From assembly GCF_025822765.1 (NCBI RefSeq), contig NZ_JACKUK010000023.1:790289-854288 (forward strand): 64,000 nucleotides of DNA, given 5' to 3'. The notes below the pieces were generated by a model. The model searched no databases. It was not told where the DNA came from and was given only the letters and a program-made list of their open reading frames with translations. How positions within the stretch are numbered: position 1 is the first letter of the stretch; each line of letters starts with the position of its first letter. The position numbers and the translations under genes were made by a program. Source of the stretch: Mycobacterium barrassiae. Its GTDB lineage: Bacteria; Actinomycetota; Actinomycetes; Mycobacteriales; Mycobacteriaceae. Positions 18,002-50,891 of the stretch are shown here, in pieces.

Positions 18002-19711
18002 TCACGGCAGCGGCGCACTCCACGTCAACTTGGTGCCACCGGTCGGCATCGGTTCGACGATGAACGACCCGCCCACCTCTTCGGCGCGCTTGCGCAGGTT
18101 CCTCAGCCCGCTTCCGGTGATCTCCCCCTCGATGCCGCAGCCGTTGTCGGTGACCTCGATGGTCAAGTCGTCCCCGACCCCGACGCTGACCGCGATCGAG
18201 GCGGCCTGAGCGTGCCGGACGGCGTTGCTCACAGCTTCTCGGACAACGGCTTCGGCGTGGTCGGCGAGCGTCGCGTCGACCACCGAAAGCGGTCCCGTGT
18301 ATTGCACAGTGGTGCGAATTCCTGCGGTGGCGAACTGGGCGACGGCTTCGTCGAGCCGCTGGCGTAGCCGGGTCACTCCGGATGACGACCCGTGCAGGTC
18401 GAAGATCGCCGTCCGGATGTCCTGAATCACCTGTTGCAGGTCGTCGACGGATTCCATCAGTCGCTGCTGCACTTCCGGCGCCCGCGCCCGCGGGATGGTG
18501 CCCTGCAGCGCGAGGCCGACTGCGAACAGCCGCTGGATGACGTGATCGTGCAGGTCACGGGCGATGCGATCGCGGTCGCTAAGGATGCTCAGCTCCCGCA
18601 TCTGGCGCTGTGCGCTGGCCAGCTGCCAGGCCAGAGCGGCCTGGTCGGCGAAGGCAGTCATCATGTCGAACTGGTCGGAACTGAACCGCGGCGCCCCGAC
18701 CGGTCGCAGCGCGACCAGCACGCCGGCAACTTCGTCGCTGGCGCGCAAGGGTAGCACCAGCGCCGGACCAGTCTCCGTCGCATCCAGCACGATACGGTCG
18801 AACCGGCCGGGTATGCGCTGGCGGAATGCCTCTCCGATCGGTGTTCCCTCCACCGGTACGGATTGCAGCGACTCCCCAGTGCCGTCCCCAGAGATCGCGG
18901 CGACGACGAGCTCGGTCGTCTCGGTGACGGGCAGATCCGCGTCAGCTGGAACGGCGACCAGCGTCAACTGGGCACCGCTGAGATGCCGAGACTCGTCGGC
19001 GACCATCCGGAACACCGTGGCGGGATCGGTCCCCGCCAAGAGCTCGGTTCCGATATCGCGGGTCGCCTCGATCCACGACTGTCTGGTCCTGGACTGTTCG
19101 TAGAGCCGGGCGTTGTCGATTGCGATGCCCGCCGCGGCCGCCAGCGCTTGGACCAATACCTCGTCGTCCTCGCTGAACGGCAGCCCGTCCGCCTTCTCCG
19201 TCAGGTACAGGTTTCCGAACACCTCGTCGCGAGTGCGCACCGGTACGCCGAGGAACGTTCGCATGGGCGGATGGTTCGGGGGGAATCCGACCGACGACGC
19301 GTGGTGGGAAATGTTGTCCAGGCGAATCGGTTTCGGATCGTCGATCAGCACCCCGAGTACGCCACGGCCCTCCGGTAGGTGGCCGATCAACTCACGCGTC
19401 TGCTCGTCGATGCCTTCATAGATGAACTCGACCAATTCGTGGTCGTGGCCACGTACGCCGAGGGCGCCGTACTGGGCATCGACGAGCTCGATAGCCGTGT
19501 GCACGATCGTCTTCAGGGTCTCATCGAGTTCGAGACCCGAAGTGACGACCAGCATCGCCTCGACCAGACCGTCGAGGCGGTCTCGACCTTCGACAATCTG
19601 CTCGACGCGCTCCTGTACCTCTGTGAGCAGCTCCCGCAGCCGCAACCCCGAAAGGGTTTCACGCACCCGCGGCGCGCGTGGCTCAGCGCTCGCCCCCGGC
19701 CCATCGGTCAC
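18002..19711 (-). CDS. dosS: DosS/DevS-type haem sensor histidine kinase
   Basis: 569 residues, GTG start. It aligns along its full length with my memory of M. tuberculosis DosS (578 residues). GAF-A is about 58-200 and contains [12 protein letters not shown], placing H147 at the position of the DosS proximal haem ligand H149. GAF-B is about 225-365. The dimerisation/phospho-acceptor motif [12 protein letters not shown] gives acceptor H388, and the HATPase keeps [10 protein letters not shown] and DNGCGI. The family senses O2, NO and CO and phosphorylates the regulator DosR. No dosR-like gene lies upstream or anywhere in this window, unlike the dosR-dosS operon of M. tuberculosis. It opens an island rich in DosR-type genes. 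A DosT-like role cannot be excluded. Confidence 0.93.
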
Positions 19712-19735
19712 CGCCTCATCGTCTCACCGGGCTCG

Positions 19736-19757
19736 CTTAATGTCGGCTTAATGTCGG
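19736..19757. repeat. Tandem 11-base direct repeat upstream of dosS
   Basis: Two perfect head-to-tail copies of CTTAATGTCGG at 19736-19746 and 19747-19757. They lie 25-46 bases upstream of the dosS start, where a promoter or a direct-repeat regulator site would be expected. The 11-base period equals about one helical turn. The binding protein is unknown. Confidence 0.75.
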
Positions 19758-19811
19758 CGATTCCGGAAGCCAATGGACGAGGCTGGGCGGTTTTTCCAGC
19801 TCACGTTGAAG

Positions 19812-20510
19812 TCAGCTGCCCTGTGCGGCCTTGTCTCCTTCGCGGAGGTCCTGCGACATATCGACCGTGACGTGGTCTTGACGCAGGCGTTGGGCACGGT
19901 CGCGGATGCCCCGCATCATCTTCTGCTCCATCACGAAATGAGCGATATCGAAAACCGGATGTCCGCAAACTCCGCCACTGCCCCGAACGAGCAGACGGGT
20001 CCACGCGTTCTGTCGACGAAGACAGAACGCCCATGCACCCGAGGCCTTCTCGCCGCGCTGCAGGCGCCCGAAATCGGCCGGTGACACCAACACCAGGTGT
20101 GAATCCTGCTCGACGGCCGCAACCACCTGCCTGGCCGCGTCGCCGTACCGCCGGGCGAGCCAGACGCTGTCGCCGACGCGGACGTCCTGCCACTCGGGGT
20201 GGATGGTGTCCGCGTTGGTGATGTGTGAGCCAACGGCCCGTTCCAACGGCCAATAGCTGTAGAAGCCACCGCGGTCTTCACCAATTTGCGCTATCCACGG
20301 CCAGACGGCCTGCAGGGGCGCGTCGATGGTCAGTGCCCGCGTCGTGCGTATGGTCCCCGGCGCCACGAATTCATCTCCCGGCAAGGTGGCCGCGACTTCA
20401 TCGTCGTCAGCACCCCACGTGTAGATCCGGGGCCGCACGCCGGCTCGGTACATCGTGATGATGCCGACCACAGCCATCAATGCGGCCAGCCACCGGCGCT
20501 GTTTGCCCAT
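19812..20510 (-). CDS. SRPBCC-fold (START-like) protein with N-terminal membrane segment
   Basis: 232 residues. A hydrophobic helix (8-25) is followed by a START/polyketide-cyclase-like domain, recognised from APLQAVWPWIAQIGEDRGGFYS (about 68-89), a signature shared with the protein at 25130 (APASAVWPWLVQMGQDRGG). Such proteins bind hydrophobic ligands in a deep cavity. The two copies in this window are paralogues. It diverges from the KAS III gene, and the GGGCC-N4-GTCCC box between them lies 36-49 bases upstream of its ATG. The ligand is unknown. Confidence 0.78.
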   Translation of the reverse strand: MGKQRRWLAALMAVVGIITMYRAGVRPRIYTWGADDDEVAATLPGDEFVAPGTIRTTRALTIDAPLQAVWPWIAQIGEDRGGFYSYWPLERAVGSHITNADTIHPEWQDVRVGDSVWLARRYGDAARQVVAAVEQDSHLVLVSPADFGRLQRGEKASGAWAFCLRRQNAWTRLLVRGSGGVCGHPVFDIAHFVMEQKMMRGIRDRAQRLRQDHVTVDMSQDLREGDKAAQGS

Positions 20511-20545
20511 ACGCCGACGCTAGAAATGCGTACGCACACGGCGAA

Positions 20546-20559
20546 GGGCCGAAGGTCCC
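20546..20559. promoter_or_regulatory. DosR-type box in a divergent promoter
   Basis: GGGCCGAAGGTCCC fits GGGNC-N4-GNCCC exactly, the core of the published DosR consensus TTSGGGACTWWAGTCCCSAA. It is 59-72 bases upstream of the KAS III start (20618) and 36-49 bases upstream of the SRPBCC start (20510), the same two distances seen at other boxes in this window. Inference from sequence only. Confidence 0.7.
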
Positions 20560-20617
20560 CATCATCGATGCCAATTGCGCTCTACATCGCCGACGCGCAG
20601 AGGCACATCATCGGGTG

Positions 20618-50102: not shown

Positions 50103-50138
50103 CCCCGCGCTGCCACATCGGGTTTCTACCGTGGTGCC

Positions 50139-50492
50139 ATGACCTATGTGATCGGTTCAGCATGCGTTGATGTCATGGACAAGTCGTGTGTACTCGAGTG
50201 CCCGGCCGACTGCATTTACGAGGGCGCGCGCACCCTCTACATCAATCCCGACGAGTGTGTCGACTGCGGGGCGTGCAAGTTGGTCTGCCGCGTGGAGGCG
50301 ATCGAGTACGAGACCGACCTCGACGACGACGACCTTTGGCACCTCGAAGACAACGCCGCGTTCTTCCAGACCGTGCTGCCCGGACGGACGGAGCCATTGG
50401 GCTCGCCGGGCGGCGCGCAGACGGTCGGCAGGGTTGGTGTCGACACCCCACGCGTAGCGGCCATGCCGGTGAGGGATCACGTAGACCACTGA
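50139..50492 (+). CDS. fdxA: 7Fe ferredoxin
   Basis: 117 residues. The N-terminal part matches the FdxA type that holds one [3Fe-4S] and one [4Fe-4S] cluster: ACVDVMDKSCVLECPADCIYEG (about residues 7-28) and ECVDCGACKLVCRVEAI (about 42-58). The last cysteine is followed by Arg instead of the usual Pro. The C-terminal 35 residues, Gly/Arg-rich, are longer than in most FdxA. FdxA (Rv2007c) is DosR-controlled in M. tuberculosis. Likely electron carrier for the reductases of the island. Confidence 0.92.
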   Translation: MTYVIGSACVDVMDKSCVLECPADCIYEGARTLYINPDECVDCGACKLVCRVEAIEYETDLDDDDLWHLEDNAAFFQTVLPGRTEPLGSPGGAQTVGRVGVDTPRVAAMPVRDHVDH

Positions 50493-50515
50493 TCAGACCG
50501 GTTGATATGACCGAC

Positions 50516-50548
50516 ACGTAAAGGCGCTGCAACGCAGCGCCTTTACGT
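50516..50548. terminator. Strong hairpin terminator after fdxA
   Basis: A 15-base perfect stem whose arms are 50516-50530 and 50534-50548, with only AAC between them (inner arms GGCGCTGC / GCAGCGCC). It begins 24 bases after the fdxA stop. The AAAG/CTTT base gives a short T stretch in the right arm. By far the strongest hairpin I found in the window. Confidence 0.85.
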
Positions 50549-50602
50549 CACGTCCGCGTCGCGACGTAGCCCGAATAGGGGCACTTCGCCACAGTCGACA
50601 AG

Positions 50603-50616
50603 GGGCCCATCGGCCC
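50603..50616. promoter_or_regulatory. DosR-type box upstream of a small Cys/His protein gene
   Basis: GGGCCCATCGGCCC fits GGGNC-N4-GNCCC exactly and lies 60-73 bases upstream of the ATG at 50676, the usual distal position in this window. Confidence 0.68.
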
Positions 50617-50675
50617 TATTGCCAATCCGCCGCCGGGCGCATCCTGACGGTAATCAACCGAAGAGGAGCGCGATC

Positions 50676-50891
50676 ATGTCGAGCGATGTGGAAATGCACA
50701 GTGATGTCGAACCGCTGATCCACTACTGCCGCACCTGCGGTCACCCAAAAGAACAACACAACCTTGACTTTCACGGTGACCCGAAAGAGGCTCACGAACT
50801 CTATCGCCACGGCGAGTACGTGTGCCATGACATGACGGGCTTGAACTCGACCGTGCATTGCATCTGCGTGGGATGGAACGGTTGGTCCTGA
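50676..50891 (+). CDS. 71-residue Cys/His-rich protein
   Basis: 71 residues from the ATG at 50676 with AGAGGAG 7 bases upstream. Contains CRTCGHPKEQHN (about 18-29), then VCHDMTG and HCICVGWNGWS at the C-terminus: five cysteines and several histidines spaced like metal ligands. Acidic N-terminus. No family is recognised. Its position between two island transcripts and its exact DosR-type box suggest a hypoxia-induced small metal-binding protein. Confidence 0.75.
   Translation: MSSDVEMHSDVEPLIHYCRTCGHPKEQHNLDFHGDPKEAHELYRHGEYVCHDMTGLNSTVHCICVGWNGWS

Follow-up and report, generated by a model that had tools for sequence, protein, structure and literature searches.

The question raised by this locus is whether the genes at positions 18002-50891 (the island) of a 64,000-nt stretch of a 5.9 Mb Mycobacterium genome (C23:790289-854288, hereafter the window) form one regulon of the regulator DosR (DevR), as a first-pass annotation had proposed from box-like palindromes in their leaders, and by which promoter layout they would be read. 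Judged from its sequence, the island is very probably a DosR regulon locus, and it adds a further case to an established type of dormancy control without constituting a new type. The proposed single regulon appears to hold, being supported by the enrichment of boxes in leaders, a DosR orthologue, a DosT/DevS-type kinase, the gene content and a shared -10 register; the predicted promoter rule is sharper than the one first claimed.

Predicted DosR sites were scored with a matrix trained on 66 loci from other genomes; the coordinate of a site is the first base of its 20-mer, and distances were taken from the box centre. Leaders of the island were compared with the other leaders of the window and with a control of 20 stretches of 20 kb (400 kb) from the same contig, excluding gaps of less than 40 bases and convergent gaps. 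Sites of at least 12 bits were found in 8 of 15 island leaders, in 0 of 10 leaders in the rest of the window and in 1 of 160 control leaders, as expected from the earlier proposal that island leaders would stand out on matrix scoring. This control is the stricter because two of its 20 stretches were placed on exact box matches and one contains dosR; its sole leader at this score belongs to a second box cluster beside dosR. With a matrix built from the DosR consensus, four island sites ranked top in the window. Thirteen island leader sites reach at least 9 bits (Table 1), the number of boxes given in the first-pass annotation. Against GGGNC-N4-GNCCC, 7 of them are exact and 4 have one mismatch, 38026 has two and 47243 three; the loose rule of up to two mismatches is unenriched.

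Several counts would fit a chance origin, namely palindromes without function in GC-rich leaders. The pattern with up to two mismatches gave 556 matches in the window, fewer than the shuffle mean of 769, and therefore carries no evidential weight; the exact core occurs 7 times in the window, always in island leaders (3.1 expected), a number reached by 4 of 100 shuffles; and genome-wide, AGGGNCNNNNGNCCC gave 49 strand matches (42 distinct places, merged by hand) against 95 for the reversed control. Yet the island accounts for 7 of these places, about 0.2 being the expectation from its length, and 4 lie within 6.4 kb beside dosR. Chance is contradicted by this clustering in two places, by the leader enrichment and by the 22-bp partners and -10 register described below, and we regard it as extremely improbable. 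The box evidence thus rests on where the good sites lie and on how they register with the -10. RKGRNCHHDDGNYCMY, a degenerate pattern run genome-wide, was set aside as uninformative, with 60 matches forward and 94 in the reversed control.

For comparison with relatives, orthologue matches starting past query residue 25 or covering less than 55% were excluded, as were leaders shorter than 150 bases (per-family 12-bit counts) or 200 bases (register and second -10 analyses); repeated 40-base cores were counted once, except in the per-family 12-bit box counts. Site picking differs between analyses, which gave orthologue site sets of 141, 169, 146 and 169 (forward).

Paired boxes had been described as starting 21-23 bases apart, and this spacing was borne out, most of the leader palindromes having a weaker second one about 22 bp away. 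For 8 of the 13 main sites the highest-scoring neighbour is exactly 22 bp distant, a partner of at least 2 softened bits was found at 21-23 bp for 8 of 13, and none of 2000 flank shuffles attained the mean best score seen at 21-23 bp. In orthologue leaders, the offset at which second sites of at least 5 bits are most numerous is 22 bp, to the far side (10 of 141, with a background of 0.5 per offset). In relatives, 75 of 146 sites have an ANNNT -10 whose final T is 35.5 or 36.5 bp away from the box centre (6.2 expected), and 14 further sites are in register via a nearer partner. In the window, where the register was measured from the main site or from the partner 22 bp nearer the gene, ANNNT lies at 35.5-36.5 for 10 of 14 promoters, against a mean of 1.2 and a highest count of 4 among 40 shifted registers. 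This test is not circular, since the matrix excludes the -10. Given this distance, the boxes would lie near -43 and -65 from the predicted transcription start, the proximal box being predicted to overlap the -35.

The predicted -35-overlapping proximal site with an adjacent weaker site resembles M. tuberculosis DosR/DevR promoters, in which the proximal site overlaps the -35 and an adjacent weak site is bound cooperatively in a class II-like layout (PMC3029386, PMC5360333). It differs in that a spacing of about 22 bp and a centre-to-(-10) distance of 35.5/36.5 were measured here across many genes and species, and in the TCGNAT subset treated below; a single site is known at the DrrS promoter. 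No statement of the 35.5/36.5 register or of the TCGNAT class was found in the available parts of the literature on DosR/DevR with leaderless starts or SigC (PMC6448022, PMC5360333), a scope outside which the main M. tuberculosis promoter papers fall, so that absence is not proven.

The first-pass annotation had also placed the boxes at two repeated distances upstream of the genes. In 11 of 14 promoters the main site indeed falls 41.5-43.5 or 63.5-66.5 bases before the start codon, the outlying distances being 69.5 (pfkB), 94.5 (47347 gene) and 138.5 (fadD, partner at 116.5); these three genes have Shine-Dalgarno leaders and boxes farther from the start, and it is presumably such a leader that shifts the distance. 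Seven starts picked on codon use and ribosome site, blind to the boxes, have a main box in one of these two ranges (41.5-43.5 or 63.5-66.5), and for five of the seven (20510, 20618, 25130, 43869 and 50139) the T of an ANNNT -10 falls exactly at -7, compared with 23 of 192 control starts (p ~4e-4). On the simplest reading several island genes look leaderless, and box-to-start-codon distances would repeat because transcription starts at the start codon. In M. smegmatis, the -10 is ANNNT and 24% of transcripts are leaderless (PMC6448022). Revised starts at 38078, 47150, 48699 and 49938 replace the gene caller's 38234, 47180, 48594 and 49914; box geometry was part of the reason for preferring them, and 47150 and 49938 look better placed than 47180 and 49914 as judged by -10 position. 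A universal 43/65 start-codon distance was not found in relatives, where it varies by gene family, and the distance to the -10 was retained instead.

Outside the ANNNT class, TTGACT occupies the same place in the USP (universal stress protein) promoter and TCGNAT in the Rv1738-like and pfkB promoters, where the minority -10 GTGGTCGGAT holds the register (window 24950-25025 and 43664-43743). In this second class the -11 A is missing and a TG lies upstream. TCGNAT-type -10 sequences are also in register in leaders of relatives of the Rv1738-like and pfkB genes; a GTGGTCGGATCGA-like sequence was found in 30 in-register contexts of orthologue leaders against 14 chance matches in 15886 other positions, a count that overstates independence because many contexts are homologous. 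A search of 60 genus genomes with a composite second-class pattern gave 22 matches in 18 genomes against 8 for the control (hand count), and none in the genome studied here; it may back the second class, weakly. In DosR promoters a -65 box, a -43 box, a -10 and in many cases a leaderless start might be locked together as a rigid cassette that comes in two core classes sharing one register (ANNNT, and TGGTCGGAT without the -11 A and with an upstream TG), the second being wholly DosR-dependent or using another sigma factor, so that the Rv1738-like and pfkB operons would differ in gain or timing; we consider this tentative and rather unlikely.

The regulator that would read these boxes is encoded outside the island. 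A DosR orthologue was found at C23:475742-476395, and a DosR relative of at least 82% identity is present in 50 of 60 genus genomes, this one included (hand count). Another NarL/LuxR-type regulator recognizing a similar palindrome could be imagined, given 30 GerE-domain matches in the genome (28 over the cut-off), none of which falls inside the island in the genome-wide scan. Against this, the DosR helix motif occurs in only one of the 30 loci, the DosR orthologue itself, the closest own-genome relative of DosR among the matches listed is 37% identical, and the island gene content is of the DosR-regulon type; such a regulator is accordingly very improbable. USP, Acg, ferredoxin, pfkB, Rv1738-like and WS/DGAT genes are characteristic of DosR regulons, and all of these types are present in the island according to Pfam and NCBIfam, the databases used to assign its gene families.

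Just upstream of dosR lies the second DosR-box cluster (C23:468198-474556). Genes near dosR were named by eye as universal stress proteins, a permease, a wax-ester synthase and a Rv2004c-like protein, the Rv2004c-like gene having boxes at 64.5 and 43.5 with a -10 in register.

The island kinase (C23:808293) is the only full-length DosS/DosT-type match of the genome, seven others being partial (26-32% identity). The best PDB matches of its GAF-A domain are 2vzw (264 bits) and DevS chains (220-224 bits); we take 2vzw to be DosT, its record saying only probable histidine kinase response regulator. A 12-letter protein stretch is retained in the kinase, and its His is taken to be the heme ligand, partly on the basis of PMC4082495. 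The kinase is 332 kb from dosR, near which no kinase match was found in a genome search with the island kinase, the dosR-dosS tandem being absent here. Among 38 genus genomes with a kinase of at least 64% identity over most of its length (excluding two genomes where the kinase is in two pieces, and weaker or partial matches), dosR is unlinked in 7, including this one, divergent at about 2 kb in 3, in tandem in 27 and unjudged in 1. Low oxygen (or NO, CO) would activate the DosT-type, putatively heme-binding kinase at 18002-19666, which would phosphorylate the DosR encoded 332 kb away; DosR dimers may then bind side by side near -43, overlapping the -35, and near -65, and recruit RNA polymerase, with transcription of several genes beginning at the start codon.

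Several observations weigh against this DosR reading or limit its extent. The training loci of the matrix include orthologues of some island leaders, so that it is not fully independent, and many leaders of relatives are without a 12-bit box, such a box being present in 5 of 37 for pfkB, 10 of 27 for KAS III and 28 of 79 for ppsA. Measured from the main site alone, the window register holds for 6 of 14 promoters; the reductase promoter, with its partner at 23 bp, is a possible eleventh ANNNT in register, a count that depends on a choice between two sites as the point of measurement and that the strict 22-bp rule leaves at 10. A spacing of 22 bp is not the sole one, since site pairs 40 and 57 bp apart are reported from M. 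tuberculosis DosR chromatin immunoprecipitation sequencing (PMC2812949). Starts 24950 and 50676 have a Shine-Dalgarno sequence and no -10 at -7, ppsA, read as leaderless, has GAGG upstream, and dosR itself has only a 6.4-bit softened site. Within 170 bp upstream, no site of 3 softened bits was found for the hydrogenase (31474), and the best sites reach 4.7 softened bits for the kinase (19666) and 3.8-4.2 for the wax-ester synthase (37823).

In the absence of a good box directly upstream, these three would belong to the regulon by read-through or not at all. Only part of the island may thus be DosR-controlled, the hydrogenase, kinase and wax-ester synthase being under other control, a reading to which we give somewhat less than an even chance. 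Conservation could not help here, as no hydrogenase or fadD match in relatives' loci passed the filters. Against other control, msmeg_3927-3931 of M. smegmatis are induced at low oxygen (PMC2799521), Hyh is counted within the M. smegmatis dos regulon (PMC8125079), and read-through is possible from boxes 33917 and 20543; the former, ahead of the fadD-like gene, is the closest box upstream of the hydrogenase.

The DosR regulon assigned to the island has its nearest likeness in M. smegmatis msmeg_3926-3955, a cluster that rises at low oxygen and includes hydrogenase and phosphoenolpyruvate (PEP) synthase genes, the latter 23-fold up at 0.6% oxygen (p = 0.08) (PMC2799521). Both are DosR-type gene clusters with a [NiFe] hydrogenase and a PEP synthase, the M. 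smegmatis one being hypoxia-induced. Hydrogenase and PEP synthase are singled out there as departing from the Dos regulon of M. tuberculosis, and both M. smegmatis clusters are said to hold a devR copy (PMC2799521), unlike the island. OsdR of Streptomyces coelicolor is a DevR-like regulator with a similar palindrome, AGGGCCGATCGGCCCT, differing in genus and regulon (PMC5069765). The closest named relatives of the island PEP synthase belong to Mycobacterium and Mycolicibacterium (best 80 of 154 loci). DosR regulons were reportedly predicted in other mycobacteria in a comparative study of 2011.

The features are collected in Table 1. The SRPBCC label set beside KAS III in the first-pass annotation was dropped, as neither 19812-20510 nor 25130-25825 has a Pfam/NCBIfam match. 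The Rv1738-like and phosphoribosyltransferase/esterase genes, separated by a 27-bp gap, would form one operon because of it, as would pfkB and the trehalose-phosphatase/GH65 gene because of theirs.

Table 1. Predicted DosR boxes and genes of the island (window positions; distances in bases from the box centre; aa, amino acids)
Feature	Position	Strand	Details
DosS/DosT-type sensor kinase (GAF, GAF, HisKA_3, HATPase)	18002..19666	-	no good box of its own
232-aa protein	19812..20510	-	no Pfam/NCBIfam match
DosR box, exact core	20543..20562		17.0 bits; common to two divergent genes, 42.5 from start 20510(-), 65.5 from start 20618(+)
KAS III pair	20618-21718, 21702-22574	+	family searches
Rv2632c-like (Rv1738-like) protein, then phosphoribosyltransferase/erythromycin-esterase protein	22594..24950	-	family searches
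DosR box, Rv1738-like gene (-)	25006..25025		19.4 bits; weak partner 25028; -10 TCGTAT
DosR box	25077..25096		16.9 bits; 43.5 from start 25130(+); -10 CATCGT, T at -7
231-aa protein	25130..25825	+	no Pfam/NCBIfam match
Pyridoxamine-oxidase-like protein and [NiFe] hydrogenase genes	25856..31474	-	hydrogenase 26363-31474
AMP-binding (fadD-like) enzyme	31830..33788	-	
DosR box, upstream of fadD-like gene (-)	33917..33936		14.9 bits; partner 33895 at 22 bp, -10 T at +35.5
Two wax-ester synthase/DGAT proteins	35050..37823	-	no good box directly upstream
Weak DosR box, USP	38026..38045		9.2 bits; 42.5 from start 38078(+); -10 TTGACT, not ANNNT
Universal stress protein (USP)	38078..38959	+	Pfam run on 38066-38959
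pfkB, then trehalose-phosphatase/GH65 fusion	38962..43664	-	family searches
DosR box, pfkB (-)	43724..43743		16.0 bits; partner at 22 bp; -10 TCGGAT
Distal DosR box, ppsA (+)	43795..43814		14.4 bits; 64.5 from start; proximal partner 43817-43836 at 42.5
PEP synthase-like protein (ppsA)	43869..46145	+	
Protein without family match	46142-46741	-	Pfam/NCBIfam
Deazaflavin-dependent reductase-like protein	46746-47150	-	under NCBIfam cut-off
Distal DosR box, deazaflavin-type reductase (-)	47207..47226		14.1 bits; 66.5 from start 47150; partner 47184-47203 (23 bp) at 43.5
DosR box, 84-aa protein 47347(+)	47243..47262		12.2 bits; 94.5 from start; -10 T at +35.5
84-aa protein	start 47347	+	
Acg-family FMN oxidoreductase	47671..48699	-	NF047509
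DosR box, Acg-type oxidoreductase	48731..48750		14.6 bits; 41.5 from start 48699(-); -10 T at +35.5
Universal stress protein	48774-49676	-	
Three-helix-bundle protein	49693-49938	-	
DosR box, three-helix protein	49972..49991		9.7 bits; 43.5 from start 49938(-); partner at 22 bp
Distal DosR box, fdxA (+)	50064..50083		17.6 bits; 65.5 from start; proximal partner 50086-50105 at 43.5
Ferredoxin (fdxA by name)	50139-50492	+	
DosR box, Cys/His protein 50676(+)	50600..50619		13.5 bits; 66.5 from start; -10 T at +35.5; Shine-Dalgarno present
Cys/His protein	50676-50891	+	no family match

Elsewhere in the window, two large proteins are encoded side by side at 435-6632, a hybrid histidine kinase that has three stretches of receiver domain and an adjoining receiver-PAS-GGDEF-EAL protein; a P450 fused to flavodoxin and FAD- and NAD-binding reductase domains lies at 52693-55860, and a formate/nitrite transporter family protein at 62983-63843, close to the window end.

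A usable rule emerges, which runs from the box centre over 35.5 or 36.5 bases to the last T of the -10. By this rule four start codons here would be reassigned, and DosR targets, transcription starts and start codons could be predicted in other mycobacteria. The separation of dosR from the genome's one full-length sensor match and the second -10 class would be small, testable departures from the textbook system.

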